Positions 1 through 63,864 of a stretch of DNA of 64,000 bases are shown here, piece after piece. The notes under the pieces are model-generated. The model worked only from the letters and a program-made list of their open reading frames with translations, was not told the origin of the DNA and ran no database searches. The stretch comes from Sipunculus nudus. Taxonomy: Eukaryota > Annelida > Sipuncula > Golfingiida > Sipunculidae. The stretch spans positions 96,556,723 through 96,620,722 of the forward strand of contig CM049309.1 in NCBI GenBank assembly GCA_026874595.1, read 5' to 3'. Within the stretch, counting starts at the first letter, position 1. Each line of letters opens with the position of its first letter. The position numbers were made by a program, and so were the translations under genes.

Positions 1-560
1 TTTCTGGGGGGTACTATAGCTCGAAGGATATGGGTAACAGAGATCTAATTTATGGTTTCCACGGAGACTTTTAATAGGTTTCTCAGTGTGTCGAGAATGA
101 AGATTCTAGGTCCAGCGGTTACAATTTGTGCCACGTTAACAGATGACAGCATCTTTAAACGTCTCAAAAATAGAGGAAAAAATTGTAAAAAAATCGAAAA
201 ATACAGGTGGCGCCACCAGTCTGCAGGAAGTGATGGAACATCTCATGATTAATATGTATGCCAAAAATCATGACCATCAGTCGAGTAGTTAATGAGATAT
301 TGAAGTTTTTGTATGAAATTTTTTACTTTTCTGGGGGGTACTTTGGGGCCCCATAGCTCGAAGGATATGGGTAACAGAGACCTAATTTCTGGTTTCCAGG
401 GAGATTTTTTCATGGCCCTCTCAGAATCCCAAGTTTCAAGGTTCTAGGTTCAGCGGTTACGATTTGTGCCTGGTTAACGGACGGACAGACGGACAGACGG
501 ACGACGGACAAAGAGTGATCGCTATAGCTCAGATGACTTTCAGTCATCTGAGCTAAAAAC
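1..560 (-). mobile_element. Family B element, right-hand part (runs off window)
   Basis: Two diverged copies of a B core (about 1-250 and 330-480) are followed by an ACGG/ACAG run (478-505) and a terminal stem-loop whose arms, AGCTCAGATGACT and AGTCATCTGAGCT, pair perfectly around a 3-base loop. The element ends at GAGCT followed by five A. The left end is outside the window. It interrupts a family A tail that resumes at about 560. A palindrome GGTGGCGCCACC sits at 207-218. Strand follows the Helitron convention, with the short terminal hairpin at the 3' end. Confidence 0.75.
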
Positions 561-667
561 CGTCCAGTAGTCTCAGAGGAGTTCTCCGGAAACGAATGCG
601 GTGGCAGTGGCGGCGGAACCCGGTCAAAAACAAAGTATCCGTAAAACTTCGTTTTGGCGGAGACAAT
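561..667 (-). mobile_element. Family A terminal fragment
   Basis: Matches the ends of the A copies at 9340-9455, 12310-12405 and 29045-29142: a CGG/CAG-rich stretch, then a GTATCCG...CGGAGAC stem-loop. Its remaining part should lie left of the window, because family B (1-560) is inserted in it. It is itself inserted in the B element that continues at 668. Confidence 0.7.
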
Positions 668-2349
668 TACTATCTCAGCTATAATCTATTACTGGAATTA
701 ATATTTAATTTGCACTTTAATCATTGTAACCCTGGTGGTACAACACAAAATCTAAAATGTAGCAAAAGCCTAGCATAAGATTGAATCAAATACAGAAAAT
801 TATTACATAATCTAGTTTATGCACTATCCGGGAAGCCTGCCAAGAGAGGAAGCCCTCCAAGCTGAGCCAAGGCAAGCTGCCTAGAGCAGGTTACATAGCA
901 CAGACTGGTGAAAGCTGTACTAGGTAGGCTTGATGTAAACACTTGACATGGTGTATGAAAACTTGAATAAAAGCTACTCTTTTCAATCAATTCTTTTGAA
1001 ATTTCAGATTTTAAAAGATTAAATCCTTATATTTATATGCTGTGAAAATTGAATCAACAGTACTTACAGGGAAAAAACGTGCCATTGCCAAAGTTGGACA
1101 AAATTTAAGGCATTGATTTTTTATTTATGCTAATAACTTGAAAAATTTGCAAAATTCAGATCTAATTTTGGGTAAACAATTGAATCTTGATTAAATAAAG
1201 TTATATTCTTGAAAAAAAGTCTCTAGGTTCAGCAATTCTCATGTTAGGTGAGTAAAGATATTTCCTGATTTTTTAAAAATTGCATTATATTTTGGCCCAT
1301 AACTTTAAAATAATACCCAATACTGACCTAATTTTTGGTATGTTTACAGAAAATGTATGAAAGAATGTGAATATTAAATATGATCTTAAACAGATCAGTG
1401 GTTTTGATATTAGGCAGCCTTGAAGTGTAACAATGGCTTTTTTTATGGAAAACGGAGGTTTTTCCTTAATATCTCGAAGGAACAAAGTCCTGATGACCCC
1501 ATTTTTGGTATGGTAGGAGATTTTGGGGACATCTAACATTATGCCAACAGCCTGGGGAGCATAGAGATGTGTACTGAATGACCTACAGTCATCAAAGAGG
1601 ACTGCTTGACAATGTAAGGGAATACAACAAGAGACTCAAAAAAAATTCAATAACTAGCCTAATTTTGCAGCTTTTATTTTCAAATTTCAGATTTTAACAG
1701 ATTAAATCCTTATGTGTACATGCTGTGAAAATTAAATCCACAGTACTAACAGGAAAAAAACGTGCCGTGGCCAAAGTTGGGCAAAATTTAAGGTACCAAT
1801 TTTATATTTTTGCAAATATTTAAAAAAATTTAACAGATTTTGATCTATTTTTGGTATACAATTAAATTGTGATTAATTAAAGTTGTATTACTGAAAAAAA
1901 GTCCCTACCTTTAACACTTTTGGTCTTAAGTGACCAAATATCTTTCCTGATTTTTTTACAAAGTCCATTATGTTTGGGCCCATAACTTTTTTAAATTAAA
2001 TAATACTGACTTAATTTCTGGCATGTACATAGGAACTATATAGAGGAATATTTATGGTAAATATGAAGAAAACCAGATGAGTGGTTTTGATTTTAGGCAG
2101 TCTTGAAGTGTAAAAGATGATTTCTAATAAAAAAATTGAGGTTTTTCCTTAATATCCCAAAGGAACGAAGTCCTATTGACCCAATTTTTGGCATGGTAGG
2201 AGATTTTGGGGACATCTAACTGTATGCCAAATTTCAGATTCGTAGGTCCAATGGTGTTGAAACTTGCCAGTCTTACGGACGGACATCCGGACAGACGGAC
2301 GGAGGGACAGACGACAGACAATGGACCACGACTTATAGTCAGCTGAGCT
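668..2349 (-). mobile_element. Family B element, interrupted by A
   Basis: Aligns by eye with 60195-61452 plus 63336-63864, another B copy that carries a nested insertion. It contains two B cores (about 1000-1560 and 1680-2230), an ACGG run (2277-2310) and the terminal CAGCTGAGCT followed by A. The right end abuts the 45-base array, so this copy inserted in or beside that array. No coding capacity is seen; the 84-residue minus-strand frame at 1285-1539 is core sequence. Confidence 0.75.
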
Positions 2350-8535: not shown

Positions 8536-9455
8536 AACTAGAATAAGGGTAGTCGACAAGCGACTACGTGTATCCACCAAAATCAGAGTGGGACAGGTGA
8601 AGTGAGGCATGGATTGAGTGGCAAGGGGAAATAGAGTGAGGTGTGTTGCATAATAGCCTTGATGTCTGCAGCTGAAATGTGTATGAAGGTTGCGCCACCT
8701 GCCACAAAATCCAGAAAGCTATCCAAGATGAATAAACCTGCAAAATTTTAGGCAGATATGTGAAACGACTGCCGAGATATAAGTGATTTTATCCCACAGC
8801 TAACAAACAGACAGACACTGTGGAAAAATGGTTGCAGGTGGCACCATCACTTTTGCGTATGATAAAGAGCTAGGGGAGATCTATACACATGCAAAATTTT
8901 TGCCCAACTGGTCAAACAGTTCTTGAGATATGAGCTTGGATGTCTGCAGCTTAAACGTGAATGTAGAAGGCGCCACCTGTGATAAAATCAAGAAAGCTGT
9001 CCAGGATGAATACACATGCAAAATTTCAGGTTGATAAGTCCAACCAATGCAGAGATATGAGTGATTTTAACCCAAGGCAGATGAACAGATGGACGCTGTG
9101 CAAAAAATGGTTGCAGAGGGGCGTCACCATTTTCAGTGTATGTTATAAAGCTATCCAAGGGGTGCATTTGTACAAAAAGTTTAGCCTGATCTGTCAAACG
9201 GTTACTGAGATATGTGGGTTTATGTTTGGAAACAGACGCACAAATGGATGCTTGGCAGAGAGGAAAGGTCAGAGGTCAACCAAAAATGAGGGCGCAGCAG
9301 TTTACATGTCACCCGAACATAATTCTAATTTTAAAAAATTCTGCCCAGTGGTTACAGAGGAGTTCTCGGGAAACCTATGCGGCAGTGGCGGTTGGTTGGC
9401 AGAGGCGTGCGACTGAAAAACATAGTATCCACAAAACTCTATTTTGGCGGATACA
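8536..9455 (-). mobile_element. Family A element with both ends
   Basis: Left end AACTAGAATAAGGG, then a hairpin GTAGTCG-ACAAG-CGACTAC and GTATCCACCAAAATCAGAGT. The right end is ACTCTATTTTGGCGGATAC, the inverted counterpart of the subterminal repeat. Between them are about two cores and a tail. Read on the minus strand it finishes hairpin, seven bases, CTAG, then T, which is the Helitron 3' end pattern. No protein is encoded. Confidence 0.8.
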
Positions 9456-11722
9456 ATGATTGTGGCTGGCACCATCAGTCTTGTATACAACGAAGAGATA
9501 TGCCCTATGTCAGACTGATATGTCAAACCCCTCCTTTGATATTAGCAGGGCCATTTGTAAGTGGCACCACCGTTCTTGTACACTATAAAGCTACCCGATA
9601 TGTATAAACATGCCCAATGTTATGCTGCTGTATCAAATTTCTCTGTAGAAATAAGCAGGCGCATACACTGCAAAAGTCAATGTAGGTGGCACCACCTGTC
9701 TTGTAAATGAGAATACCATCAAAGACGCATAGACAGGTCAAAATATCAGGCCAATTCATCAAACTTCCCAGAATTTGATGCACTGGGCTGATGAGGCTTA
9801 GGTGAGTAAGGCAGTTGCCTACGAGTGAACTGTGACAAATTGCTGCCTCAAGCTACTGCACTGATTGAACTCTTGACCTGCACCTGGCTAGATTGAGTGA
9901 CTGAGTGAACTTTTGACCTGTACTTGGCTGCACTGAGAAAACTCTTGACCTGTTGCATTATCTGACACAGTTGGCAGTCTGCCAAAGCTATAAATAGATC
10001 CAGGCTGAACTTTGGTGCCAAATCTGATGCAATTAGCAGTCTGCCAAAGCTATAAATAGAATTCAGCTACTGCACTGAGTGAACTCTTGACCTATGCCTG
10101 GCTGCACTTCTTCCCATCCAGGCACTGTGCCAAAACTATTTATAGAGCTGACATCATCTTGGCTAATGGCCACTCAAGCCACAAGGCACTGGCAATCTGC
10201 CAATGGTAAACCAAGTGCTGCCATCTGTACACAAAAGTGGTCCCTACTTGAAATAACTTTGAAATTTAATTTCCCAATACAAAATGCTTTATAGCTGACT
10301 GTTTACAAAAAAGAAATCAGGAATACATGTAAAATTATTACAGATGCATACTGAATGCAAAATAAAATACAGATATATCTCATTGATGGGAAATTCTTGA
10401 ATTAAGTTAAGTAGGGATACCAATAATTTATAATCCATGTACAGTTGTATTTATATAGCCACAGAGAGCTGAATATCCATGAATATCCCATTGCCTGGTA
10501 TGATGAATAACTTAAATCATAAATCTAATTTTTTTAAAAGCTTTTAAAAAAACTTTCTTGTCAATATAAACCAAAGATAACCTGAAATCTAAATGTCTAG
10601 TTGCATGATGTAATAGATGCTGATAAACTGGTGCCAGGCTAGATGTAACAGCATCACACAGCTAACATATATGGTAAAATGACTCAGTTCAATCTCCATA
10701 ATTCAGCTAAAAATCATTCATGTGGAACCATTAATGACAATTAATAAAAGAATTATTGAAGGGATTATCTTGTAAAGACTTAACAAACTGGCTTAAGTGG
10801 CAACAGTCGAAAAACATTTTACAGGTTTATAACTCATATAGGAAGATACAGCTAACTGGCTATGTTCAGCTTCCCATAACTCAGCCAAAAATCACTGGAC
10901 CAAAACCACTTGAACAATCTTGAATTATCAACATCTGAGGATAATTAATGTGTGAGATTTAAGAAATTGGCCAAGTGGTTTTTGAGAAGAAGATCTTTGT
11001 AGCCACTGAACTAAAATGGGCTGTTATGGCATATGACTAAATTTAGCTTCCCATAACTTAGCCAAAAGTCACTGAACTGAGACCATTTGAAAAAACTTCA
11101 GAAAGCACTACCCTAGGATCATTTCTGTGCGATTTTAAACATTTTGGCCATATGGTTTCAGAGAAGAAGTTTTTTGTAGCCCTCAGTGTGATACAGGCAC
11201 TGATGACCCCGTACAAAAAAAGCCGATGCAGGTGTCGCCACCAATACCTCAATTTCAGATATGACCTATGTGACCAACATTGGCATAAAATTTGGTGATG
11301 ATAGCTCCAGTCATTTCTGAGATTTAAATTTTAATATGTTTTTTTGGACAGATGACAAAGTTCAACCTCCTGTAACTCGGCCGAAAATCTCCGAACTGGA
11401 ACCATTCAAACAAACTTGAGAGAGATTGTTCCAGGGATCATTTCTGTGAAATATAGGACAATTTGGCTGGACAGTTTCGGAGGAGAAGATTTTTAAAGCT
11501 TTTTCCCTATAAAATCTAAGAAAATGTAGTAAGAAAAAAAAATAAACAAAATCCGATATAGTTTTTTGATTGACTGATTATTTGCAAAAACTTTGGTGAT
11601 GCTGGCTCCTGCCGTTTTTGAGATAGCTATGGTTAACGTACAGACAACGCACGACGTAAGACGCACGACACACGACATACGACGGACGCCGCCGCACCAT
11701 TGCATAAGCTCACAGGTTTGCT
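9456..11722 (-). mobile_element. Family C element, left end missing
   Basis: Matches the complete C copy at 56031-58497 from its position about 56210 onward and ends in GCATAAGCTCACAGG, TTTGCT and an A run after an ACG-rich stretch (11638-11693). The left 180 bases with the CAAGGCC end are absent; the start is the right end of the preceding A element, which occupies the same A-rich site used by a B element at 37568 in another C copy. Confidence 0.75.
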
Positions 11723-11727
11723 AAAAA

Positions 11728-12405
11728 GTCAAACCACTGCCGAGATAGGAGTAATTTTATCCCACGGCAGACAAACAGAGGGACCCTGTGCAAAAATGGT
11801 TGCAGGTGGCTCTACCAGTTTTGCATATGATAAAGAGCTAGGTGAGATCTATACACATGCAAAATTTTGGCCCAAGCAGCCAAACGGTTCCCTAGATATG
11901 AGCTTGGATGTCTGCAGCGTAAATGTTGAGAAGGTGGCGCCACCTGTCATAAAATCAAGAAAGCTCTCCAGGATGTATACACATGCAAATTTTCAGGTGA
12001 ATAAGTCCAACCAATGCAGAGATATGAGTAATTTTATCCCAAGGCAGATGAACAGATGGACACTGTGCAAAAATGGTTGCAGGTGGCACCGCCATTTTTT
12101 ATGTATGTTATATAGCTATCCAGGGCTACATTTGTGCAAAATTTTTTTACGGATCGGTCAAACGGTTCCCGAGATATGTGGGTTAATGTGTAATAACAAA
12201 CGCACAGATGGACGCAGAGCGCAGAGGAAAGGTCAGAGGTCAAAACAAAATCGGGGCACAGCAGTTCACATGTGACCCAAACATAAACCTGGGTTTCGTA
12301 AAATTCCACCCAGCAGTTATGGAGGAATTCTCCAGACACCTATGCTGCGGCAGCGGCGTCTGGCTGAAAACATAGTATCCGCAAAACTCTGTTTTGGCGG
12401 ATACA
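11728..12405 (-). mobile_element. Family A partial copy (core and right end)
   Basis: Begins mid-core at GTCAAACCACTGCCGAGAT, directly after the C end, and runs through two cores and the tail to CTCTGTTTTGGCGGATAC. The core junction suggests that C inserted in an A element, but the matching left half is not contiguous on the other side of C. Confidence 0.75.
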
Positions 12406-12586
12406 ATTATCTGATTTTAAGAAAGAAATCATTTACACAGCAGTATTATTAGGTACACAAAGAATGAAACTGATGATATAATAAATTTAATGTCATTTTG
12501 CTCTGTAGATTAGACAGTTACTTGAGGTTCCAAAGTCTCTACCAGTTTAATAATATAATAATGAAAAGTCTTGTAAATGTACTCAC

Positions 12587-12923: not shown

Positions 12924-12935
12924 CTTAAAAAGAAA

Positions 12936-14761
12936 CAAGGGACCCATGGGTCACTGTGCTCAGCTGAAGTTTACATTGAAGGTAAAAATCTAAAATAATA
13001 TCAAATGGAGATAAAGTGTAAGAGGAAGAGGTAATATAGGCTATGGTTGGTTTATATGATTGGTTTGTATTGATGAGCAAGAAATTGTTGCAAATAATAT
13101 TTTGTGACCTGACCATGTGTTTCCTAATGTTGAAACTTAAGCATGTGAGCAGTTTGTGAACAAATGACCTGTACTATTACCATGATCATTAGTTGGCTTT
13201 TTGATTAATTGTTGACATTTCAGTAGTTTACACATTTGTTCAACTGAATCTTTTTTTTGTATAATATACATTATTAAATATGAATGTATTTTTCTATTTT
13301 ATGAAATTTATACAGTTGAAATATAACTAATTAACAACATACATACAGGGCAAACAAAGCCCGATCTCAAATTCTGCTGAGGCAGGATAATAATGAACAA
13401 ATGTTTGTATTAGATCCTTATTTTTTTATCACATCAATTTTTTTTATTATAAGTTTATATTTCTATACATTTCCAATATAACATATATATCTGATTATAA
13501 AAGTTGATTCATAATTGTCAATTGCATCATCATAAATCTCAATCTTGTAAGATAACACCACATCATGCATACAAATGTTTATTTATTTTTTACCACAAAA
13601 ATATATCTTTTAAATCTGCAAAACAATAAATATCTAAAAATAATACTTGATTTAGATTTCACAATTTTAAATTGTGTCTTTATTAATCCATAATGTGCTT
13701 CATATTTTATAAATTTAATCAAACTGATGGGTTTAATGATATTTGTTAAAATCATTTAAAAGAAAATTTATTTCTTTAAAATTGATACATTAACACAACA
13801 TGGAATCTTCTCGATTACACCTTGAATTACTTTTTCATGGAAAGTTTTTTTTGTATATTGGAGTGGAAACAGCAATAAAATTAAGGGCGGGGGGGGGGGG
13901 GGGGGGGGGGGGGGTAGGGGTGGTGATATGAGAATAACTGTACACCTGTCCCCAAGTGTAACAAATCAGAAACCCTAGCACAGCTGACTTCCAGTGACAT
14001 GGAGTGGGACCCTGCTTCTGTAATCTGTAATCAAAGCAAATGACTACAATAGAGCCCCAAGAAAAAAAATCATTAACTAGCCTAATTTTCAAGCTTTTAT
14101 TTTCAAGTTTCAGACTGAAACAAATTAAATACTTATGTTTACATGCTGTGAAAATTAAATCAATGGTACTTACAGGAAAAAAACATGCCATGGTCAAAGT
14201 GGGGCAACATTTAAGGTTCTGATTTTATTTTTATGCTAATAACTTTAAAATTTAACAAAATTCAGATCTAATTTTGGGTAAACAATTGAATCTTAATTAA
14301 ACATAGTTATATACTTGGGGAAAATTGACTCTAGTTTCAAAATTTTTTCATGTTAAGTGAGTCAATATTTTTCCTGATTTTTTACAAAGTCCATTATGTT
14401 CGGGCCAATAACTAAAAGATATTATACTTAACAGACTTAATTTCTTGCAAGTACATATGAACTATATAAAGGAATATTTAGGGTAAATATGAGGAAAAAC
14501 AGATAAGTGGTTTTGATATTAGGCAGTCCTGCAGTGTAAAAATAGGTTTTTAATAAAAAATTGAGGTTTTTTCCTTAATTTCTCAAAGGAACGAAGTCGC
14601 AAAAATCCAGTTTTTGGCTTGGTAGGAGATCTTGGGTCTTCCTAGGTCCTAAGGTTTCAAAATGTGCCACACCTATGGATGGAGGAATGGACGGACGGAC
14701 GGCAAGACAGACGGACAATGGAACATGACTGTAGCTCAGATGACTTATAGTCAGCTGAGCT
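12936..14761 (-). mobile_element. Family B element, short subfamily (B2), complete
   Basis: Left end CAAGGGACCCATGGGTCAC, holding the 12-base palindrome GACCCATGGGTC, then GCTCAGCTG. The right end has an ACGG run (14691-14722) and AGTCAGCTGAGCT plus six A. About 1.83 kb. A second copy is at 61453-63335. It contains a 26-base G run in a fixed position (13889-13914). The first third is very AT-rich; the last third is one B core. Confidence 0.82.
13889..13914. repeat. Poly-G tract (26 G)
   Basis: An uninterrupted run of 26 G inside the B2 element. The sister element at 61453-63335 has a run of the same length at the equivalent place. Confidence 0.9.
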
Positions 14762-14767
14762 AAAAAA

Positions 14768-19980: not shown

Positions 19981-21699
19981 AACTAGAATACGGGAAGTCG
20001 ACAAGCGACTACTTGTATCCGCCTAAATCAGAGTGGAACGGGTGAAGTGTTGCATATCAGCATGGATGTCTGCAGCCAAATTGTGTATGTAGGTTGCGCT
20101 ACCTACCAAAAAATCCAGAAAGCCGTCCAAGTTGTATACATATGCAAAATTTAAGGCAGATAAGTCAAACCACTATATTGTATATGAGTGATTTTTGCCC
20201 TTGGCAGACAAACAGATGGACGCTGTGCAAAAAAGGGTTGCAGGTGGCGCCACCAGTTTAGCGTATGATAAAGAGCTTTGTGAGAACTATACACATGCAA
20301 AATTTTGGCCCAATTGGTCAAACGGTTCCCTAGATATGAGCTTGGATGTCTGCAGCGTAAACTTGATTGTAGGTGGCGCCACCTGTCATAAAATCAGAAA
20401 AGCTATCCAGGATGTATAAGCATGCAGAATTTCAGGTGAATTAGTCAAACCACTGCAGAGATATGAGTGATTTTAACCCAAGGCAGACGAACAGCTGGAC
20501 ACTGTGCAAACATGGTTGCAGGTGGCGCCACCATTTTTTGTGTATGTTATAAAGCTCTCCAAGGGCTACATTTGTGCAAAAAAATTTTCCTGATCAATCA
20601 AACGGTTCCTGAGATATGAGCTTGGATGTCTGCAGCGTAAACATGAATGTAGGTGGCGCCACCTGTCATAAAATCAGAAAAGCTATCCAGGATGTATACG
20701 CATGCCAAATTTCAGGTGAATTAGTCAAGTCACTGCAGAGATATGAGTGATTTTAACCCAAGGCAGACAAACAGATGGACACTGTACAAACATGGTTGCA
20801 GGTAGCGGCACCATTTTTGGTGTATGTTATAAAGCTCTCCAAGGGCTACATTTGTGCAAAAGAATTTTCCTGATCGGTCAAACGGTTCCCGAGATATGAG
20901 CTTGGATGTCTGCAGCGTAAACGTGAATGTAGATGGCGCCACCTGTCATAAAATCAGATAAGCTATCCAGGATGTATACGCATGCCAAATTTCAGGTGAA
21001 TTAGTCAAGTCACTGCAGAGATATGAGTGATTTTAACCCAAGGCAGACGAACAGATGGACACTGTGCAAACATGGTTGCAGGTGGCGCCACCATTTTTGG
21101 TGTATGTTATAAAGCTCTCCGAGGGCTACATTTGTGCAAAAGAATTTTCCTGATCGGTCAAACGGTTCCCGAGATATGAGCTTGGATGTCTGCAGCGTCA
21201 ACGTGAATGTAGGTGGCGCCACCTGTCATAAAATCAGAAAAGCTATCCAGGATGTTTGCGCATGCCGAATTTCAGGTGAATTAGTCAAGTCACTGCAGAG
21301 ATATGAGTGATTTTAACCCAAGGCAGACGAACAGATGGACACTGTGCAAACATGGTTGCAGGTGGCGCCACCATTTTTGGTGTATGTTATAAAGCTCTCC
21401 GAGGGCTACATTTGTGCAAAAAAATTTTCCTGATCGGTCAAACGGTTCCCGAGATATGTGGGTTTATGTGTGGAAACAGACGCACAAACGGACGCAGAGC
21501 GCAGAGGAAAGGTCAGAGGTCAAAACAAAATCGGGGCGCAGCAGTTCACATGTGACCCGAACATAATCCCGGGTTTCGGAAAATTCCGCCCAGCGGTTAC
21601 GGAGGAGTTCTCCGGACACCTACGCGGCGGCCGCGGCGGCGGCGGCGGCGGCGACCAGCTGAAAACATAGTATCCGCAAAACTCTGTTTTGGCGGATAC
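19981..21699 (-). mobile_element. Family A element (inner), complete, inside the LINE
   Basis: Left end AACTAGAATACGGGAAGTCG with hairpin, subterminal GTATCCGCCTAAATCAGAGT, four to five tandem cores of 280 bases, then the tail with a CGG expansion (21620-21652) and CTCTGTTTTGGCGGATAC. About 1,719 bases. Its ends are fixed by the LINE reading frame on both sides. Two palindromes GGTGGCGCCACC occur per core, for example 20243-20254 and 20372-20383. Several 70-codon minus-strand frames are core shadows. Confidence 0.85.
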
Positions 21700-36717: not shown

Positions 36718-37392
36718 CAAGGGACCCATGGGTCACGGCGCTCAGCTGTTATATATGATAAAAAATATGATTTGGGAAAGAGGCACATGCTGGTTTTGTG
36801 TGGTAATAAATATAAGCTTTATTTTGAGTTGTTGGTGTTTAGCTTGTGTATGATTTTGATAGTATCTTTGGAGACAGGGAAGAGGATTGATTTCATTTAT
36901 TTTATTAACAAATGGAGTGCTATTGTCCCACAGATTTTGACTTGGCCATATAACTTATAAGCAGCACATATAATAAAAGAGTTTAACTATTTATTAAAAT
37001 TTAATAACAAATATTGTGCCAATATAGTTTTTATTTTAAAAAATAATAAGAAAATCATATGATTTTTAAAAATAAAATATAACTGAATTGATTATTAAAA
37101 TAATATTATAGAATATATTCATGAATGCATTCATGAATACATTTTGAAAGTATCTGCACTGGTATTCAAATACTTTCATTTTTACCTGAGTTTCCATTCT
37201 TATGCAATAAAATTTTTTAAGGCAGTACATATTCATATTTGTATTCAAATACATTTGCAAAGCATTCACACCATGTCTAGTATTTATTCAGTTTTAGCCA
37301 AACAATGATGTTGAGAATCCAGAATATACAAAATTCACAAATATAAATAATGATCACAAGTACCTGGTTTTATGGCGTTTATTTATATTAAA

Positions 37393-43674: not shown

Positions 43675-46305
43675 CAAGGGACCTATGGGTCACGACGCTC
43701 AGCTGTTATATATGATAAAAAAATATTATTTAGAAATGAGGCACATGCTGGTTTTGTGTGGTAATAAATATAAGCGGTATTATGAGTTTTTGTTGTGTAG
43801 CTTATGTATATGATTTTGATAGTACCTTTGGAGACAGGGAAGAGGATTGACTTCATTTATTTTATTAACAAATGTAGTACTACTGTCACACAGATTTTGA
43901 CTTGGCCATATAACTTATAAGCAGAACATATAATATAAGAGTTTAACTATTTATTAAAAAAATTACAAATATTGTCCCAAATATAATTTTTATTAAAAAT
44001 AATAAGAGAATCATATGATTTTTTAAAATGAAATATAACTGATATGATTATTAAAATAATATTAAAGAATATATTCATGAATGCCTTCATGAATACATTT
44101 TGAAAGTATTAGCACGAGTATTCATATACTTTCATTTTTACCTGAATTCCCATTCTTTATGCAAGAAATTTTATAATGGAGTACATAATCATATTCGTAT
44201 TTAAATACAATTACAAAGTATTCGCACCATGTCTGGTATTTATTCAGTTTTCACCAAACAATGATGTTGAGAATCCAGAATATACAAATTTCACACATTT
44301 AAATAATGATCATAAGTACCTGGTTTTATGGCTTTTATTTATATTAAAAAATAACTGTAAAAAATTCATTTTGGACTAATTTCACATCAATGTACACACT
44401 AGACACAGTAGGAATCTAGATTAATATTATCAACTGCATCTTTGTCTATCATTAATTTCCTTCATATAATCCTTAATGATTAGTAATGAATAATATGATT
44501 TACTTCTTTATCATTAAAAATGAACTGAAAAATGCCATAGGTGACTGCATGGTGTTATTTGGAATATATGTGACATTCTACCCATCGATACAAGATTCTT
44601 ATATCATCAGTAACTGCAAGTTAATTTCCTGTTATTATAAACTAACAAATTCCTTTTCTATTTTTCTTTAATTTGTTATTAAAAACCAATAAAAATTTAT
44701 TAATTTATTGTTTATTGTTATGTTGTTGGTTAAAACTACTAGATGAGTTGGGTTGAACACCTGGATCAACTGTGGCTGGCCATAAGCTGCCTGGATTCTC
44801 CCCTCAAGTGTGCATAATTTGATGAAAGGTCAACAAGGTCAACATACAGGTGACTCAAGAGGGGCTGGAGAGAGCCAAAGTCTGACAGGGTCTCATAAAA
44901 AATATTAATAAAAGCTTCAATATTTGGCAAATTTCTTTCAGCTTTCTAAACTAAAAAGCTGAAATCCTTATGTGTGCATGATATGAAAATTATATCAACA
45001 GTGCTCACGGGAAACAAACGTGCCTTGGTCACAGTTGGGCAAAATTTAAGGTACTAATTTTATATTTATACTAATAACTTATAAAATTTGAAAAATTCAG
45101 AACTAATTTTGGGTATTCAATTGAATCTTGATTAAATAATGTTACATCCCTGACAAAAAAATCTCTAGCTTCAGCAATGCCCTTGTTAAGGGAGTAAATA
45201 TATTTCTTGATTTTTTACAAAGTGCATTATGTTTGGGCCCATAACTTAAAAAAAATACACAATACTGACATAATTTCTGGCATATGCATAGTGAATGTAT
45301 AGAAAAATATGTATATTATATATGATCAAAGTCAGATCAGTGGTTTTGATATTAGGCAGTCTTAAAGTATAACATTGGGTTTATAATGGAAAAATGAAGT
45401 TTTTCATTGATATCTCGAAGGAATTAAGTCCTAGTGACCAAATTCTTGGCATGGTAGGGGATTTTGGAGAAATCTAACTGTATGCCAAATTTAAGGATCT
45501 TAGAGCTGAAGCTCGGGAGCTGAGCTCTAGCAAACTGCATAACACTAGCAATATGTGACATGGTGCTTGAAAACTTGAATAAAATCTACAGTTTTTTATC
45601 AACTGGTTTCAAATTTTTGGTGTTAACAGTTGAAATGCTAACAAAAACATGCTGTGAAAATTAAATCCACAGCATTTACAGCAAAAAAACGTGCCATGGT
45701 CAAAGTTGGGCAAAATTTAAGGTACCAATTTTTTATTTTTGCTAATATTTTTAAAAATTTAAAAGATTTTGATCTAATTTTGGGTTCACAATTTAATTTT
45801 GATTAATAAAAGTAATATTAATGGAAAAAAAGTGCTTAGCTTTAACAAGTTTTGTGTTAAGTGATAAAATTTCTTTCCTGATTATTTACAAAATGCATTA
45901 TGTTTGGGCCCATAACTTTTTTAAAATAAATAATACAGACCTAATTTCTGGCATGTACATAGGAATTATATAGAGGATTGTTTATAGGAAATATAAGGAA
46001 AAACAGATGAGTGGTTTTGATATTAGGCAGTCCTAAAGTGTGAAAATAGGTTTTTAATAAAAAATTGAGGTTTTTCCTTAATTTCTCAAAGGAATGAAGT
46101 CGCAAAGACCCAGTTTTCGGCTTGGTAGGAGATCTTGGGGACATCTAACATTATGCTGAATTTTGGATTCCTAGGTCTTACGGTTTCAAAACGTGCCACA
46201 TCTACGGACGGACGGACGGACGGACGGACGGACGGACGGACAGACGGACGGACGACGGACAATGGACCACGACTATAGCTCAGATGACTTATAGTCAGCT
46301 GAGCT
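43675..46305 (-). mobile_element. Family B element, complete and uninterrupted reference copy
   Basis: 2,631 bases from CAAGGGACCTATGGGTC to CAGCTGAGCT. The left 1.2 kb is AT-rich; the right part holds two diverged cores about 671 bases apart (GGGCAAAATTTAAGGTAC at 45037 and 45708), an ACGG run (46201-46258) and the terminal hairpin. No coding frame is seen. Its host resumes at AAAAAAGTCCCTACC. Confidence 0.82.
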
Positions 46306-46844
46306 AAAAAAGTCCCTACCTTTAACATTTTTGACCAAATGACCAAATATCATTCCTGATTTTTTTACATTATGTTTGGGCCCATAACTTTTTTAAATTG
46401 AATAATACTGAATACTGTTTCTGGCATGTACATACAAACTATATAGAGGAATATTTATGGTAAATATGAAGAAAACCAGATGAGTGGTTTTGATATAAGG
46501 CAGGACTGAAGTGTGAAAATAGATTTCTAATAAAAATTTGAGGTTTTCCCTAATATCTCAAAGGAACAAAGTCATATTGACCCAATTTTTGGCATGGTAG
46601 GAGATTTAGGGGACATCTAACTGTATGCCGAATTTCAGATTCGTAGGTCCAATGCTGTCGAAACGTGCCAGTCTTACGGACGGACATCCGGACGGACAGA
46701 CAGACAGACGGACGACGGACAATGGACCACGACTATAGCTCAGATGACTTATAGTCAGCTGAGCTAAAAATGAACACAATTATATTCATTTCTTCATAAT
46801 ATCCATTACAGCTCTTTCTACATATTAATATACTTAAAGGATAC

Positions 46845-52064: not shown

Positions 52065-54426
52065 CAAGGGACCCATGGGTCAGAGCGCTCAGCTATTATA
52101 TATGATAAAAAAATATGATTTAGAAAATTGGCACATGCTTGTTTTGTGTGGAAATAAATATAAGCTGTATTATGAGTTGTGGGTGTTTAGCTTATGTATG
52201 ATTTTGATAGTATCTTTGGAGACAGGGAAGAGGTTTGATTTTACTTATTATATTAACAAATGGAGTGCTATTGTCACACAGATTTTGACTTGGCCATATA
52301 ACTTATAAGCAGAACATATAAGAGTTTATATAAGAATAACTACAATTTGTCCCAAATATAATTTTTATTAAAAATAATAAGAGAATCGTATGATTATTTA
52401 AAATAAAATATGACTGAAATGATTATTAAAATAATATCAAAGAATATATTCATGAACGCATTCATGAATACATTTTGAAAGTATTTGTTCTGGTATTCAT
52501 ATACTTTCATTTTTACCTGAATTCACATTCTTATGCAAGAAATTTTATAATGGAGAACATATTCATATTCGTATTCAAATACATTTGCAAAGTATTTGCA
52601 CCATTTCTGGTATTTATTCAGTTTTCACCAAACAGTGATGTTGAGAATCCAGAATATACAAAATTCACACATTTAAATAATGATCATAAGTACCTGGTTT
52701 TATGGCAATTATTCATAATAAAAAAAATAAATGTAATATATTCATTTTGTACTAATTTCACATCAACACACTAGACACAGCAGGAATCTAGATTAATATT
52801 ATCAACTGCATCTTTGTCTATCATTAATTTCCTTCATATGATCCCTAATGATTAGTAATGAATAATATGATTTATTTTTTATCATTAAAATTGAACTGAA
52901 AAATACCATAGGTGACTGCATGGTGTTATTTGGAATATGTGATATTCTATCAATTGATACAAGATTCTTATATCATCAGTAATTGCAAGTTAATTTCCTG
53001 TTATTATCAACTAACAAATTCCTTTTCTATTTTTCTTTAATTTGTTATTAAAAATCAATAAAAATTTATTGATTTATTGTTTATTGTTAGTTAAAACTAC
53101 TAGATGACTTGGGTTGGACACCTGGATCAACTGTGGCTGGCCATAAGCTGCCTGGCTGCCCCAGTGTATGCCTCCCATCAAGCGTGCATAATTTGATGAA
53201 AGGTCAACATACAGGTGACTCAAATGGGGCTGGGGAGAGCTAAGGTCTGACATGGTCTCATAAAAACATTAATAAAAGCTACAATTTTTGGCCAATATCT
53301 TCCAGCTTTCTTTACTAAAAAGCTGAAATCCTTATGTGTGCATGATATGAAAATTATATCAACAGTGCTCACAGTAATCAAACGTGCCATGGTCAAAGTT
53401 TGGCAAAATTAAAGGTACTAATTTTATATTTATACTGATAACTTATAAAATTTGAAAAATTCAGAACTAATTTTGGGTATTCAATTGAATCTTGATAAAA
53501 TAATGTTACATTCCTGACAAATAATCTCTAGCTTCAGCAATCCTCTTGTTAAGGGAGTAAATATATTTCTTGATTTTTTACAAAGTGCATTATGTTTGGG
53601 CCCATAACTTAAAACAATTATGCAATACTGACATCATTTCTGGCATGTGCATAGAGAATGTATAGAAAAATATATTATATATGATTAAAGTCAGATCAGT
53701 GGTTTTAATATTAGGCAGTCTTGAAGTGTAACAATTGTTTTTTAATGGAAAAATGAAGTTTTTCATTAATATCTCAAAGGTATTAAGTCCTAGTGACCAA
53801 ATTCTTGGCATGGTAGGGGATTTTGGAGACATCTAATTGTATGCCAAACTTTTGGAACTGAGAGCTGAAGCTGGGGAGCTGAGCTCTTGCAAACTGCATA
53901 ACACTATCTTGATGTAAGCAATATGTTACATGGCGCTTGAAAACTTGAATAAAATCTACAGTTTCTTATCAACTGGTTTCAAATTTTTTGTGTTAACAGA
54001 CAAAATGCTTACAAAAACACGCTGTGAAAATTAAATCCACAGTACTTACAGAAAAAAAAGTGCCATGGTCAAAGTTGGGCAAAATTTAAGGTATCAACTT
54101 TTTATTTTGTTAATATTTTAAAATATTTACAAGATTTTGATCTAATTTTGGGTATACAATTTGATTTTGATTAATTAAAGTTATATTACTGGAAAAAAAT
54201 CCATAGCTTTTACATGTTGTGTTAAGTGATCAAATATCTTTCCTGATTTTTTACAAAATGCATTATGTTTGGGCCAGTAACTTTTTTAAATTATATAAAA
54301 CAGACATAATTTCTGGCATGTACATAGGAACTATATAGGGGAATATTTATGGTAAATATGAAGAAAAAACAGATGAGTAGTTTTGATATTAGGCAGTCCT
54401 AAAGTATGAAAATAGGTTTTTAATAA

Positions 54427-54538
54427 CAAGGCCTACAGGCCTAATGCGAACCTGTGCAATGAGATTACACCAGGTATAATGCTTCAATGCTGGACCATTA
54501 CTTTTCAAGAAAATGTGTAACATGTATATGAACAATAT
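54427..54538 (-). mobile_element. Family C left-end fragment
   Basis: CAAGGCCTACAGGCCTAATG and about 110 bases of C, ending at GAACAATATG where A core sequence starts. Confidence 0.7.
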
Positions 54539-56030
54539 GTCTGCAGCATATACATAAATATAGGTGGCGCCACCTGTCATAAAATCAAGAAAGCTGTCCA
54601 GGATGTATACACATGCAAAATTTCAGGTGGATAAGTCCAACCAATGCAGTGATATGAGTGTTTTTATCCCAAGGCAGATGAACAGATGGACGCTGAGCAA
54701 ATATGGTGGCAGGTGGTGGCACCAATTTTGTGTATGATTAAGATATATATGAGATCTATACACATGCAACATTTCAGGGGGATATGTGAAACCAGGCCAA
54801 AAAAAAAAGCCTGAATGTCTGCAGCATATACATAAATGTAGGTGGCACCACCTGCCAAAAAATCTAGAAAGCTATCCAAGATGTATTAACATGCAAAATT
54901 TTAGGCAGATAAGTCAAACAACTGCCAAGATATGAGTGATTTTATCCCACAGCAAACAAACAGATGGAGGCTGTGCAAAAATGATTGCAGGTGGCGCCAA
55001 CAGTTTTGCGTATGATAAAGAGCTATGTGAGATCTATTAACATGCAAAATTTTTGCCCAATCAGTCAAATGGTTCCTATGATATGAGCTTGGATGTCTGC
55101 AGCATAAACTGAATGTAGGTGGCGCCACCTGTCATAAAATCAAGAAAGCTGTCAAGGATGTATAAACCTGCAAAATTTTAGGCAGATATGTCAAACCACT
55201 GCCGAGATATGAGTGATTTTATCCCACAGCAAACAAACAGACGGAGGCTGTGCAAAAATGATTGCAGGTGGCGCCACCAGTTTTGCGTATGATAAAGAGC
55301 TATGTGAGATCTATAATCATGCAAAATTTTTGCCCAATTGTTCAAATTGTTCCTTAGATATGAGCTTGGATGTCTGCAGCATAAATTTGAATGTAGGTGG
55401 TGTCACCTGTCATAAAATCAAGAATAGATGTTAAGGATGTATAAACCTGCAAAATTTTTGGCAGATATGTCAAACCACTGCCCAGATATGAGTGATTTAT
55501 CCTACAGCAAACAAACAAACAAGATGCTGTGCAAAAATGATTGCAGATGGCGCCACCAATTTTACATATGATAAAGAGCTATGTGAGATCTATAAACATG
55601 GAAATATTTTGCCCAATCGGTCAAATTGTTCCTTAGATATGAGTTTGGATGTCTGCAGCTTAAACATGAATGAAGGTGGCGCCACCTGTCATAAAATCAA
55701 GAAAGCTGTCCAGGATGCATACACATGCAAAATTTCAGGTGGATAAGTCCAACCAATGCAGAGATATGAGTGTTTTAATCCCAAGGCAGATGAACAGATG
55801 GACGTTGTGCAAAAAAAAATGCAGGTGGCGCCACCATTTTTAGTGTATGTTTTAAAGCTTTCCAAGGGCCACATTTGTGCAAAATCTTTAGCCTTATCGG
55901 TCAAACGGTTCAAAAGATATGTGGGTTTACGTGTGGAAACAGACGCTGGGCAGAAAGGAAAGGTCAGAGGTCAACCAAAAATGAGGGCGCAGCAGTTCAC
56001 ATGTGACCAATCATAATTCTAAATGTTAAA
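54539..56030 (-). mobile_element. Family A fragment, cores only plus partial tail
   Basis: About five cores with GGTGGCGCCACC. Neither end is present; the tail stops at CATAATTCTAAATGTTAAA, where C begins. The equivalent A tail at 9310 continues uninterrupted. Confidence 0.75.
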
Positions 56031-58497
56031 CAAGGCCTACAAGCCTAATGCGAACCTGTGCATTGGGAAATACACCAGGTATAATGCTTCAATGCTGGAC
56101 CATTACTTCTCATGTATATGAACAATGCAAATACTAAACATTTTATATAAGAAACAATTACACAAACATCACTGCTGAAATTCCGGCATAGGTGCACACA
56201 AAACAAAAATGATTGTAGCTGGCATCACCAGTTTTGTATACAACAAAGCTATCAGAGATATATACATATGCCCAATTTCAGACTGATATATCAAACCCTC
56301 CTGAGAAATAAGCAGGGACACACACTGTGCAAAAATTACTGTAAGTGGCACCACCAGTCTTGTATAAGACAAAGCTATTCGATATGTATAAACATGCCCA
56401 AATTTCAGGCTGATATAACAAATTCCTCTGTAGAAATAAGCAGGCACATACACTGTGCAAAAGTAATTGTAGGTGGCAACACCTGTCTTGTTAACGAGAA
56501 AGCCATCAAAGACAAATAGACAGGTCAAAATATCAGGCCCATACATCAAACTTACCTTGAGTCTGATGCATGGAGCTGACCAGGCTTAGGTGAGAAAGGC
56601 AGTTGCCCTGAGTGACCTGTGACAAATTGCAGCCTCAAGCTACTGCACTGAATGAACTCTTGACCTGCACCTGGCTAGACTGAGTGAACTTTTGACCTGT
56701 ACCTGGCTGCACTGAGTGAACTCTTAATCTGTTCCATAATCTGACACAGTTGGCAGTCTGCCAAAGCTATAAATAGATTCAGGCTGAACTTTGGTGCCAA
56801 ATATGATGCAGTGAGCAGTCTGCCAAAGCTATAAATAGAATGCAGCTACTGCACTGAGTGGACTCTTGACCTGTACCTGGCTGCACTTCTTCAATCCTGG
56901 CACTGTGCCAAAACTATTTATAGAGCTGACATCATCTTGGCTAATGGCCAACATCAAGGCACTGGCAATCTGCCAATGGTAAACCAAGTGCTGCCATCTG
57001 AACACAAAAGTGGTCCCTACTTGAAATAACTTTGAAATTTATTTTCCCAATACAAAACGCTTTTCAGTTGACTTTTTATAAAAAAGAAGTCAGGAATATA
57101 TGCACGGATGCATACTGAATGCAAAATTAAAATACAGATATATCTCATTGATGGCAAATTTTTGAATTAAGTTGAGTAGATATACCAATAATTTATAATC
57201 CATGTACAGTTGTCTTTATATAGCCACATAGAGCTGAATATTCATGATTGTAACATTGCCTGGTATGATGGATAACTTAAATCATAAATCTAAATTTTTT
57301 AAAAGCTTTTAAAAAATCTTTCTTGTCAATATTAACCAAAGATAACCTGAAATCTAAAAGTCTTGTGGCATGATGTAAAAGATGCTGATAAACTGGTGCC
57401 AGGCTAAATGTAACAGCATCACACAGCTAACATATATGGTAAAATGACTCAATTCAATCTCCATAATTCAGCCAAAAATCATTCATGTGGAACCATTAAT
57501 GACAATTATTAAAAGAATTATTGTAGGAATTATTCTTGTAAAATATTTAACAAACTGGCTTCAGTGGCATCAGTCAAAAACGTTTCGCAGGTTTATAACC
57601 CATATAGGAAGATACAGCAAACTGGCTAAGTTCAGCTTCCCGTAACTCAGCCAAAAACCACTGAACCAAAACCATTTGAACAAACCTGAATTATCAACAT
57701 ATGAGGATAATTAATGTGTGAGATTTAAGAATTTGGCCCAGTGGTTTTGAGAAGAAGATCTTTGTAGCCACTGAGCTAAAATTGGCTGTTATGGCATATG
57801 ACTAAATTAAGCTTCCCATAACTTAGCCAAAAGTCACTGAAAAGAGACCATTTGAACAAACTTCAGAAATCACTACTCTAGGATCATTTCTCTGCGATAT
57901 TAAACATTTTGGCCATATGGTTTCAAAGAAGAAGTTTTTTGTAGCAGTCAATGTGATACAGGCATTGATGACTCTGTACAAAAAAGGCCGATGCAGGTGG
58001 CGCCACCAATACCTCAATTTCAGATAAGAACAATGTGACCAACATTGGCATAAAATTTGGTGATGATAGCTCCAGCCGTTTCTAAGATTCAATTTTTAAT
58101 ATGCTTTTTTGCACAGTTAACAAAGTTTAACCTCCTGTAACTCAGCCAAAAATCTCCCAACTGGAACCATTCGAACAAACTTGAGAAAGATTGTTCCAGG
58201 GATCATTTCTGTGAAATATTGGACAATTTGGCTGGACAGTTTCGGAGAAGAAGATTTTTAAAGCTTTTTTTTAGCTTTTTCCCTATAAAATCTAAGTAAA
58301 TGCAGTTAGAAAAAAAATAAACAAAATCCGATATAGTTTTTTGGATGACTGATCATTTGCAAAAAAAATTAGTGATGCTAGCTCCTGCCATTTTTGAGAT
58401 AGCTATGGTTAACGTACAGACGACGCACAACGCATGACGTACGACGCACAACACATGACGGACGACGCCTTCCATTGCATAAGCTCACAGGTTCACT
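56031..58497 (-). mobile_element. Family C element, complete reference copy
   Basis: 2,467 bases. Left end CAAGGCCTACAAGCCTAATG with GCGAACCTGTG; right end TAAGCTCACAGGTTCACT. It contains the intact site (56205-56215) that is occupied by B in the C copy at 37393. A palindrome GGTGGCGCCACC lies near 57997. The right part ends in ACG-rich degenerate repeats (58420-58470). No coding frame is seen. Confidence 0.8.
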
Positions 58498-59770
58498 AAA
58501 AATTTGAGGTTTTTCCTTAATTTCTCATAGAAAAGAAGTCACAAAGACCCAGTTTTCGGCTTGGTAGGAGATCTTGGGGACATCTAACATTATGCCGAAT
58601 TTTGGATTCCTAGGTCTCACGGTTTCAAAAAGTGCCACATCTACGGACAGACGGACGGACGGACAGACAGACGGACGGACGACGGACAATGGACCACGAC
58701 TATAGCTCAGATGACTTATAGTCAGCTGAGCTAAAAATTGTTTCCCTTCTGACTGGGTGAGAAAACAAGGGACCCATGGGTCACGGCGCTCAGCTGATCG
58801 TGATTGGACTATAAATGTTTCTCCACTGTGATACTATATCGAGTCGATAAAGCTTATGAATATCATGGACATATTGGGCTATTATAAAGGAATGTAATGT
58901 AATATGTGAGTAAATGATAAATGAAATAACCTGACTGATGGATTAATAGAGTCAAATATAGTGGTTCATTTTTTATTTATTTAGGAGGGGTTGAAAATTG
59001 TGATATATTTGAGCAAATATGAATGCAATGACAGCAGTAATAAGCAGTAGTAGATTGATGATAAGGCTATTTGTTGAAGGATCTAAAGTGTATGGTAGTC
59101 TGCAAGCTTTCAATTTGACAGATATGATGTTATGATTTACTATGCTGATGAAGTGATTTATGAATTTGTGACTGTATGACACAATATCTCTTTAGTCTTG
59201 ACAAGGTACATTATTGTGATGCCCACTATGTCTACATATTACACAATATTGACATAATTTCTGGCATGTACATAGGTACCCATGAACGAATAGTTATACA
59301 AAATATTAAAGTATGAATATATCTGATTCATCTTGTTCTTGCTTACTGAGGCTGACTTTGGGATGGGGTTCAGAGAAGGGAAAAGTGAGGGCAGCACGAA
59401 GGTGGATGTAGAAATATTCTATTGTAATGTTCTTCATTTATATAAGAATATGAAAAGCTAAAAGGAAAGGGGCCCTCCTACTTGGTTATAGTAAAGTTCT
59501 AAATATATGATTGCAAACTAATACTCTGACAAGACTGTTATGAAGAAAAACAGTAAAAGTTTTGAGATACTGTGATGCATATGAAAATTTACAGATGGAC
59601 AGGCAAGTGGACAGAATGGACTAATACCTTTATTTCACTTTCAAGGGAATAATGCATTTAAGTTTATATATAATCCTACTTTTTTTAAGCATATCCACTT
59701 TTCCATTAAGAAGTTTTTATCTGAATCATTTTTTTATTTACAATTTTTATAAATTTTTAATAAAAAAAAA

Positions 59771-60461: not shown

Positions 60462-61452
60462 AGTGCAGGGCAGAGGGGAAGCCTGCTGGTAGTGGCCAAG
60501 CTGACCCAAGGCAAGCTGCCTGGGGTGGGTTACATTATGCAAGTGAAGGCTGTACTACTAGGTGGGCTAGATGTAAACAACACTTGACATGGTGTATTAA
60601 AACATGAATAAAAGCTTTTCTTTCCAATCAATTTCTTTGAAATTTCAGATTTTAAAAGATTAAATCCTTAAGACCTTATGTATATATGCTGTGAAAATTA
60701 AATCAACAGTGCCAAAGTTGGACAAAATTTAAGGTATTGATTTTTTATTTATGCTAATAACTTGAAAAATTTGCAAAAATTCAGATCTAATTTTGGGTAA
60801 AAAATTGAATCTTGATTAAATAAAGTTATATTCCTGAAAAAAAAGTCCCTAGGTTCAGCAATTCTCATGTTAGGTGAGTAAATACATTTCCTGATTTTTT
60901 TAAAAACTGCACTCTGTTTTGGCCCATAACTTCAAAATAATACCCAATACTGACCTAATTTTTGGTATGTTCATAGAAAATGTATGAAAGAATGTGAATA
61001 CTAAAAACGATCAAAAACAGACAGTGGTTTTGATATTAGGCAGCCTTGAAGTGTAACAATGGCTTTTTTTAAGGAAAACGGAGTTTTTTTCCTTAATATC
61101 TCGAAGGAACGAAGTCCTAATGACCCAATTTTCGGTATGGTAGGAGATTTTGGGGACATCTAAAATTATGCCAACAGCTTGGGGAGCATAGAGATGTGCA
61201 CTGAATGACCTACAGTCATCAAAGTGGACTGCTTGACAATGTAAGGGAATACAACAAGAGCCTCCAAAAAAATTCAATAACTAGCCTAATTTTGCAGCTT
61301 TACTTTTTAAATTTCATATTTTAACAGATTAAATCCTTATGTTTACATGCTGTGAAAATTAAATCCACGGTACTTACAGGAAAAAAACGTGCCGTGGCCA
61401 AAGTTGGGCAAAATTTAAGGTACCAATTTTATATTTTTGCCAATATTTAAAA

Positions 61453-63335
61453 CAAGGGACCTATGGGTCACTGTGCTCAGCTGACGTTAACCTTGAAGGT
61501 AAAAATTTAAATAATATCAAATGGAGATAAAGTGTAAGAGGAAGAGGTAATAAAGGCCATGGTTGGTTTATATGATTGGTTTGTATTGATGAGCAAGAAA
61601 TTGTTGCAAATAATATTTTGTGACCTGACCATGTGTTTCCTAATGTTGAAACTGAAGCATGTGAGCAGTTTGTGAACAAATGATCTGTACAATTACCATG
61701 ATCATTAGTTGGCTTTTCGATTAACTGTTGACATTTCAGTAGTTTACACATTTGTTCAATCGAATCTTTCTTTGTATAATATATATTATTAAATATATGT
61801 TTTTTTTTTTATGAAATGTATACAGTTGAAATATAACTAATTAACAACATAAAACATGGCAAACAAAGCCTGATCTCAAATTCTGCTGATGCAGGAAAAT
61901 AATGAACAAATGTTTGTAATAAATCCTCATTTTTTTATCACATCAATTTTTTTAAAAATTTAAGTTTATATTTCTATACATTTTCAATATAACATATATA
62001 TCTGGATATAAAAGTTGATTCATAATTCTCAATTGCATCATCATAAATCCAATTTTGTCAGATAACACCACATCATGCATACAAATGTTTATTAATTTTT
62101 TACCACAAAACTATATCTTTTATATCTGCAAAACAATAAATATCTAAAAAAAAATACTTGATTTAGATTTCTCAATTTTATTTTTAATTGTGTCTTAATT
62201 TATCCATAATGTGCTTCATATTTTATAATAATTTAAGCATACTGATGGGTTCCATCATGATTGGTAAAATCATTTAAAAGAAAAATTTCTTTAAAAATGC
62301 TACATTACACAACATTGCATCTTGAATTACTTTTTCTAGGAAAGTTTTTGCATATCAGAGTGGAAACAGCATTACAATTAAGGAGATACAGTGAACACTT
62401 GGTGGGTTGGGTTTGCGGGGGGGGGGGGGGGGGGGGGGGGGGTGATTGGGGTGGTGATATGAGAATAACTGTACACCTGTCACAGCAGGGGATCTCCCCC
62501 AGTGACTGTAACAAATCAGAAACCCTGGCATAGCTGACTTCAAGTGACCTGGAGTGGGACCCTGCATCTGTAATCTGTAATCAAAACAAATGACTACAAT
62601 AGAGCCTCAAGATAAAAATCAATAACTAGCTTAATTTTCCAGCTTTTACTTCCAAATTTCAGATTTAAACAAATAAAATATTTATATTTACATGGTGTGA
62701 AAATTAAATCAATGGTACTTACAGGAAAAAAACGTGCCATGGTCAAAGTTGGGCAAAATTTAAGGTACTGATTTTATTTTTATGCTAATTACTTAAAAAA
62801 TTTACAAAATTCAGATCTAATTTTGGGTAAACAATTGAATCTTAATTAAACATAGTTATATACTTGGGAAAATAGACTCTAGTTTCAAAATTTTTCATGT
62901 TAAGTGAGTAAATATTTTTCCTGATTTTTTACAAAGTCCATTATGTTTGGGCCCATAACTTAAAGAATTTATACTTAACAGACTTAATTTCTGGCATGTA
63001 CATAGAAACAATATAGAAGAATATTTATGGTAAATATGAGGAAAAACAGATGAGTGGTTTTGATATTAGGCAGTCCTGAAGTGTGAAAATAGGATTTTAA
63101 TAAAAAATTGAGGTTTTTCCTTAATTTCTCAAAGGAACGAAGTTGCAAAGATCCAGTTTTCGGCTTGGTAGGAGATCTTGGGGACATCTAACATTATGCT
63201 GAATTTTGGATTCCTAGGTCTTACGGTTTCAAAACGTGCCACATCTACGGACAGACGGACGGACGGACGGACAGACGGACAGCTACGGACAATGGACCAC
63301 GACTATAGCTCAGATGACTTATAGTCAGCTGAGCT
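61453..63335 (-). mobile_element. Family B element, short subfamily (B2), complete, nested
   Basis: Sister of 12936-14761, 1,883 bases. Left end CAAGGGACCTATGGGTCAC; ACGG run at 63247-63288; right end CAGCTGAGCT. It is inserted in the long B element between TATTTAAAA and AAAAATTTAACAG. Confidence 0.83.
62417..62442. repeat. Poly-G tract (26 G)
   Basis: Same position within B2 and same length as the run at 13889-13914; downstream GGTGATATGAGAATAACTG is shared. Confidence 0.9.
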
Positions 63336-63864
63336 AAAAATTTAACAGATTTTAATCTAATTTTTGGTATACAATTAAATTTTGATTAGTTAAAGTTGTA
63401 TTACTGGAAAAAAGTCCCTACCTTTAATACTTTTGGTCTTAAGTGACCAAATATCTTCCTGATTTTTTTACAAAGTCGATTATGTTTGGGCCCACAACTT
63501 TTTTAAATTATATAATTCTGACTAAATATCTGGCATGTACATAGGAACTATATAGAGGAATATTTATGGTAAATATGAAGAAAACCAGATGAGTTGTTTT
63601 GATATTAGGCAGTCCTGAAGTGTGAAAATAGATTTCTAATAAAAAAATTTAGGTTTTTTCTTAATATCTCGAAGGAACTAAGTCCTATAGACCCAATTTT
63701 CGGCATGGTAGGAGATTTTGGGGACATTTAACTGTATGCCGAATTTCAGATTCGTAGGTCCAACGGTGTGGAAACGTGCCAGTCTTACGGACGGACATCC
63801 GGACAGACGGACGACAGACAATGGACTACGACTATAGCTCAGATGACTTATAGTCAGCTGAGCT

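Follow-up and report, generated by a model that had tools for sequence, protein, structure and literature searches.

The stretch analysed here (the window) comprises 64,000 nucleotides of the Sipunculus nudus genome (GCA_026874595.1, contig CM049309.1, positions 96,556,723 to 96,620,722 of the forward strand) and contains copies of three repeat families, here called A, B and C. A preliminary description of the window had assigned to all three the architecture of Helentron-associated interspersed elements (HINEs) and had proposed that a single mobilising machinery serves them. Our analysis makes it highly probable that A, B and C are three HINE-type rolling-circle families, that B is moved by endonuclease-encoding Helentrons that carry its ends, and that A and C depend on other lineages, A being also a passenger of other elements.

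Three families with a common end plan

The elements of A, B and C in the window are read on the minus strand, with the palindrome marking the 3' end. Their ends follow one plan: a 5' subterminal inverted repeat (subTIR), internal repeats, a 3' subTIR, a palindrome and a terminal CTAG or CTTG (CTWG) beside T-runs. In B the order is TTTTTAGCTCAGCTGACTATAAGTCATCTGAGCT (5' subTIR and its inverted partner), a CCGT microsatellite, the body, CAGCTGAGC, GACCCATGGGTC and CCTTG; in A it is TTGTATCCGCCAAAACAGAGTTTTGCGGATAC, a CCG microsatellite, cores of about 280 bp, TTTTGGCGGATAC, GTAGTCG..CGACTAC and TTCTAG; and in C it is TTTTTAGCGAACCTGTG, the body, CACAGGTTCGC, AGGCCTGTAGGCCT and TG. The CTWG tetranucleotide common to the three families and, in A and B, a second inverted repeat immediately internal to the 5' one, beside which the microsatellite of each lies (CCG in A, CCGT in B), had escaped the preliminary description. 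The A element at 19981..21701 has both ends, with TTGTATCCGCCAAAAC...GTTTTGCGGATAC and the CCG microsatellite on the 21701 side, cores of about 280 bp, and the 3' palindrome GTCG..CGAC and CTAG at 19981. The C element at 56029..58502 is likewise bounded on both sides, by the 5' end CACAGGTTCACTAAAAA at 58486 and by the 3' palindrome and subTIR at 56029.

Every motif that had been named for these families is present in the window: GTATCCGCCAAAA/TTTTGGCGGATAC of A in 1 and 4 exact copies, GCTCAGCTG/CAGCTGAGC of B in 5 and 9 copies together with 5 of the palindrome GACCCATGGGTC, and GCGAACCTGTG/CACAGGTTCGC of C in 3 and 1 exact copies, with four further C 5' ends that have one mismatch over 17 bases (11711, 42141, 50520 and 58486). 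Across the 1.43-Gb genome, 3' ends were counted as palindrome plus subTIR, both exact and with a short free spacer, which gave 17,592 ends for B, 4,510 for C and 1,354 for A; each reversed-pattern control gave 0. The motifs of A, B and C are confirmed as real and as element ends, and the order of the ends, the subTIR pairs and the 3' palindromes of all three families support the HINE architecture. As far as the self-comparison of the window goes, the body of B has little sequence in common with A and C, as had been claimed for all three; the claim fails for A and C, between whose cores there is a weak alignment of 220 bp at about 68-69%.

An autonomous Helentron with the ends of B

A Rep domain search of the genome gave at least 143 matches, some of them in open frames of more than 2,200 residues, and five 13.5-kb regions around long Rep frames were examined for the family ends. 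In one of the five, E4 (on C17), an exact B subTIR and palindrome lie about 1 kb past the 2,342-residue frame. Four further loci, on C9, C1, C10 and C5, carry the last 224 bases of this B-ended Helentron at 98-99% identity, each time some 5 kb beyond another Rep match, and the similarity breaks off at a common point to within two bases. These four loci also share, at 93-97% identity, the sequence that lies about 10 kb upstream of Rep. Ends of the E1-E3 lineage were not found, as similarity ran on past the stretches examined.

A 15-kb Helentron with Rep, PIF1 helicase and endonuclease has both the 5' and the 3' end of B in all three copies read (H17, H1 and H5). These copies start with TTTTTAGCTCAGCTGACTGAAAGTC and end with CAGCTGAGCAT(C/T)ATGACCCATGGGTCACTTG, and the flanks outside them are unrelated. 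Profile matches of the H17 protein include Helitron_like_N (E=5e-27) and PIF1 (E=7e-23) as well as Herpes_teg_N and DUF6570; Rep (Helitron_like_N) and the PIF1-type helicase occur in one protein in both H17 and E5, both above the curated cut-off, and the Herpes_teg_N-like and DUF6570 domains are on the N-terminal side of the Helentron proteins (L015:2305-9327, L017:454-7713). The Exo_endo_phos match of H17 is weak (E=4e-4, 20.5 bits, below the Pfam cut-off of 24.5), and the Exo_endo_phos_2 match of the E5 protein is above its cut-off (E=7e-8, 32.7 bits vs 27.4). H17 is 88% identical to E5 over 207 of the 232 endonuclease residues, the two diverging at the extreme end. Neither H1 nor H5 has an uninterrupted frame. 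This element, H, thus has the characters of a Helentron, namely Rep and PIF1 in a single protein, an apurinic/apyrimidinic (AP)-type endonuclease, subTIRs at both ends and a 3' palindrome. Near its 5' end the autonomous element has two copies of the B-type 5' end and inverted partner, at 641 and 1365 in H17 (5' part in stretches L028/L019) and at 161 and 1223 in H1 (5' part in stretch L024).

B copies of the window as Helentron derivatives

Besides the termini that B has in common with the autonomous Helentron, two B elements of the window hold a piece of Helentron coding sequence, and this was the only coding content found in B. The first, at 12933..14766, has both ends, with the 5' subTIR, inverted partner and an ACGG microsatellite on the 14766 side and the 3' subTIR, the palindrome GACCCATGGGTC and CCTTG at 12933; the second, at 61450..63340, also has both ends, its 3' palindrome having one change (GACCTATGGGTC), and the two are 87% identical. 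Each retains 178 bp at about 77% identity to the endonuclease frame of H7, another Helentron copy, at 13056..13232 (77.5% DNA identity) and at 61572..61748 (77.0%). Searches by tblastn confirmed both remnants, with the E5 endonuclease giving E=4e-5 for the first and E=3e-7 for the second, for which E4 gave 0.002.

Further pieces of the window resemble the termini. The 5' region of H17 aligns with 560-16, 38846-38512 and 51263-51006 at 71-79% identity; the first of these is a B-type 5' region (16..560, 78.4% over 565 bp), and the second falls in the B element at 37569..38846, the first 355 bp or so of which, on the 38846 side, are 71.5% identical to H17. The 3' end of H7 equals the B consensus, and a B 3' end at 36715..36748 is 100% identical to it over 34 bp. 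By their retained endonuclease frame, some B copies are shown to be internal-deletion derivatives of B-ended Helentrons. In the A and C copies of the window, endonuclease searches, including three more endonucleases, gave no coding remnants.

Ends found in the flanks of other Helentrons

Among at least 153 endonuclease matches in the genome, 20 were picked by hand across the range of identity before their flanks had been seen, known copies of E4 being excluded, and 1.3 kb downstream of each was inspected. A B-type 3' end in sense orientation was found in 13 of the 20 flanks, at 149-680 bases and with 0-9 mismatches to 34, and antisense B-type 3' ends in none; the best of 100 shuffles had 15 mismatches. 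B-type ends could be recognised in Helentrons with endonuclease identities of 47-84% to the query. Between two of the loci, L060 and L061, identity is 98% as far as CTTG and is lost with the base that follows, which places the end of that element itself at CTWG.

A-type or C-type 3' ends were seen in none of these 20 flanks, in none of ten earlier 3.5-kb downstream windows and in none of 12 later downstream windows, a set that lacked B ends as well. A separate Helentron lineage, D3, has a conserved 3' end of its own, GTGTCGTTCCGACACATCTAG, at six loci, four among the 12 later windows and two among the ten earlier ones (L030, L038 and L068-L071); several end types therefore coexist in the genome. 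The preliminary description had looked to RepHel proteins flanked by the ends of each family: such proteins exist for B, in the three copies read and in 13 of the 20 flanks, and for A and C the sampled flanks gave none. Its single mobilising machinery is not borne out by these flanks, nor by a second lineage with a different 3' end.

In a version of that proposal the sequence of the subTIR would matter little, and one Helentron machinery would recognise only the hairpin, CTWG and the T-run. It is consistent with the fact that A, B, C and D3 all stop at a hairpin plus CTWG, mostly before T, and that the same T-run in C was used by A and by B. We nevertheless consider it improbable, as the sampled autonomous flanks had B-type or D3-type ends and never those of A or C, and the retention of B-type ends across endonucleases as divergent as those above suggests that the sequences of subTIR and palindrome matter. 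Somewhat less doubtful, and still tentative, is that A belongs to the D3 lineage with diverged ends (the D3 3' end being CTGGCGGGGGCATTC-GTGTCG..CGACAC-ATCTAG) and that C belongs to a lineage related to the B group and bearing GGCC palindromes. The score of the A and D3 3' ends aligned without CTWG was matched by 14 of 2,000 shuffles, and that of the C 3' end with a GGCC variant of the B 3' end by 73 of 2,000. These are short strings in ten pairwise comparisons, in which the other unlike pairs gave nothing, and we treat them as leads only; a coding remnant that would tie the window copies of A or C to either lineage was, as said, not found.

A and C are accordingly described here as HINE-like and not as proven HINEs: like B they have a subTIR pair and a 3' palindrome, and their termini were not matched to those of an autonomous Helentron in the sampled flanks. 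Most likely they depend on other Helentron lineages, coding copies of which did not appear in the flanks sampled.

Several observations weigh against the assignment of the three families as we give it. Seven of the 20 endonuclease flanks have no B-type end (L047, L052, L053, L055, L056, L057 and L066), and several of the 13 positive ones are closely related (for example L060, L061 and L063, or L050 and L054), and the number of independent cases is thus below 13. Orientation made little difference to B ends in the ten earlier windows, with three sense and two antisense. The absence of A and C ends from all three samples belongs here too, and a lack of partners is not proven by it, the samples being small compared with the number of Helentron copies. 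A B-type 5' end of H7 was not found in the upstream sequence examined, and a sibling of H7 at 98.9% identity extends past the H7 end; H7 is therefore a segmental duplicate and gives no independent proof of that terminus. No inverted partner of the 5' repeat was seen in the C ends inspected. Finally, the two T gained at a filled insertion site (below) could be a 2-bp TT target duplication.

Insertion sites and nesting

One site in C was found both empty and filled. The C element at 56029..58502 is empty at 56204-56210 and has five T there; the same site holds the B element at 37569..38846 in another C copy of the window, the C 3' end piece beyond it lying at 37391..37568, and an A element at L042, L044 and L045, and has seven T in the filled copies. 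The last bases of A are altered in L041 and L043. At this one C site, then, insertion of either A or B added two T and no other duplication, in keeping with the earlier claim of insertion into A/T runs.

Inverted repeats near both ends would also be expected if A, B and C were DDE-type miniature inverted-repeat transposable elements or retroposons that only superficially resemble Helentrons. We regard this as most improbable: no target duplication beyond TT was seen at the C site, the 3' hairpin is asymmetric, and the presence of B ends on elements that encode RepHel and endonuclease contradicts it for B; no search aimed at DDE genes was made. For B, the mechanism expected from related elements would be that Rep nicks at a T-run 5' of the subTIR and a helicase unwinds the strand; transfer would terminate at the 3' hairpin and the CTWG behind it, and the transferred strand would then join another T-run.

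A is nested in other elements. An A element lies upstream of the frame within the B-ended Helentron in all three copies read, and all 40 scored matches (among 3,685 first-look candidates), the window itself being one of them, cross the junction between C body and A. Five of six such composites run from the A 3' end into the C 3' end and then into differing flanks; the sixth has a B element inside A, and neither the A nor the C 3' end is in the piece examined. A thus inserted at T-runs in both C and the B Helentron, each of which multiplied afterwards with A inside. From its nesting in both it follows that A hitch-hikes as well as jumps. No Helentron copy with the A site empty came up in an exact-pattern search. 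That A forms an end of the B Helentron had been suspected, since an A 5' end precedes the frame, and was ruled out when each of the three copies proved to have the A 3' end as well, 0.8-1.3 kb beyond; A is a nested passenger there. A chimera with a C 5' end and an A 3' end, to which the junction in the window had pointed, was rejected likewise, given the five of six copies that continue into C's own 3' end.

Such nesting might account for most copies of A and C, which would then stem from hitch-hiking and not from transposition of their own. The nesting of A within the Helentron and within C speaks for this, and yet we hold it to be unlikely: the A copies at 19981-21701 and 18189-18444 and the C copy at 56029-58502 each have ends of their own that adjoin dissimilar sequence, and the C-A composites terminate with the 3' end proper to C, beyond which the flanks differ.

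In the window the composite is represented by a C 5' end and body at 9455..11727 that run into the A 5' end at 9456, the A part (8536..9456) having its 3' end with GTAGTCG/CGACTAC on the 8536 side. This copy has no C 3' end, as might be expected had A cores recombined with one another. An A element is in turn broken by the C insertion at 11727, and its 5' part is at 11728..12406.

Comparison with known elements

The three families resemble the Cg_HINE elements of the Pacific oyster, as described in the sections of PMC7492417 consulted, in the succession of subTIR, satellite-like cores, 3' subTIR and palindrome at T-rich sites, and also in the inverted partner with microsatellite (here in A and B), the lack of target duplication and the presence of several unrelated families in one genome. 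They differ in that the A cores are about 280 bp long and the Cg_HINE consensus monomers 138-181 bp (PMC7492417). The pearl elements of Crassostrea virginica and Anadara trapezia, counted among HINEs, are alike in their short arrays of central repeats and, by description alone, unlike in the length of these repeats, about 160 bp (PMC7492417). In mite, Culex and Drosophila, according to excerpts of PMC4067079, Helentrons and HINEs show the same Rep/PIF1/endonuclease protein, subTIRs, 3' palindrome and T-run target, and their HINEs are, like B, deletion derivatives with the ends of their partners; the CTWG terminus resembles the 5'TT/3'CTAG of 'proto-Helentron-Pi' in the same source. Identity between HINE and partner is given there as 84-99.9% in mite, above 95% in Culex and 98% for DINE-1 (PMC4067079), whereas the B copies of the window share with Helentrons mainly ends and pieces at 71-79%.

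A, B and C are thus further members of an established HINE-type class, with one partner identified, that of B. In the oyster both satellite-carrying HINEs and autonomous Helentrons are known, and the authors were unable to link them, 10 autonomous elements remaining unrelated to the Cg_HINEs (PMC7492417); another oyster study reports no evidence of autonomous copies (PMC7992393). In the present genome, both ends connect B to Helentrons. A search of titles and abstracts, with most subscription journals outside its reach, gave no literature that ties a mollusc HINE to an autonomous Helentron. A high-copy family, B, is here linked to a coding Helentron by both its ends and a leftover endonuclease frame. 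The spread of an element by nesting in others, as seen for A, complicates the reading of copy number as activity.

A palindrome common to the families and other features

The 12-bp palindrome GGTGGCGCCACC has 111,729 sites genome-wide, compared with 14 for its reversal. The window has 60 sites with at most one mismatch, 38 of them exact (mean of 20 shuffles 0.05), for example at 206, 11933, 20243-21361, 40520 and 57996; most of them fall in A cores, a smaller number in C bodies and a single one in a B-type piece. Within the 5' repeats of the Helentron the palindrome recurs every 322-371 bp. It may conceivably, though we think it improbable, be a functional internal site common to separate rolling-circle families, such as a helicase pause site or a binding site for replication or host proteins. 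Such a site would explain similar tandem cores in otherwise unlike families of one genome, and together with hairpin-CTWG it would form a common cis-signal to which the subTIRs add family specificity. Among the papers searched, one, on a bacterial chitinase, contains the letters of GGTGGCGCCACC.

Other pieces of the families in the window are a B element at 43672..46310 with its 3' end at 43672 and 5' end at 46310, a C 3' end piece at 54425..54536, and an A core array at 23508..25851 with a 5' end at 25851. The segments 20054-24768 and 24205-28918 are 97.9% identical and represent a recent tandem duplication of about 4.15 kb that includes A arrays. At 4929-8302 a 40-bp unit is repeated 84.6 times and at 29510-31297 a 41-bp unit 43.3 times; the second of these long arrays abuts a truncated A element.

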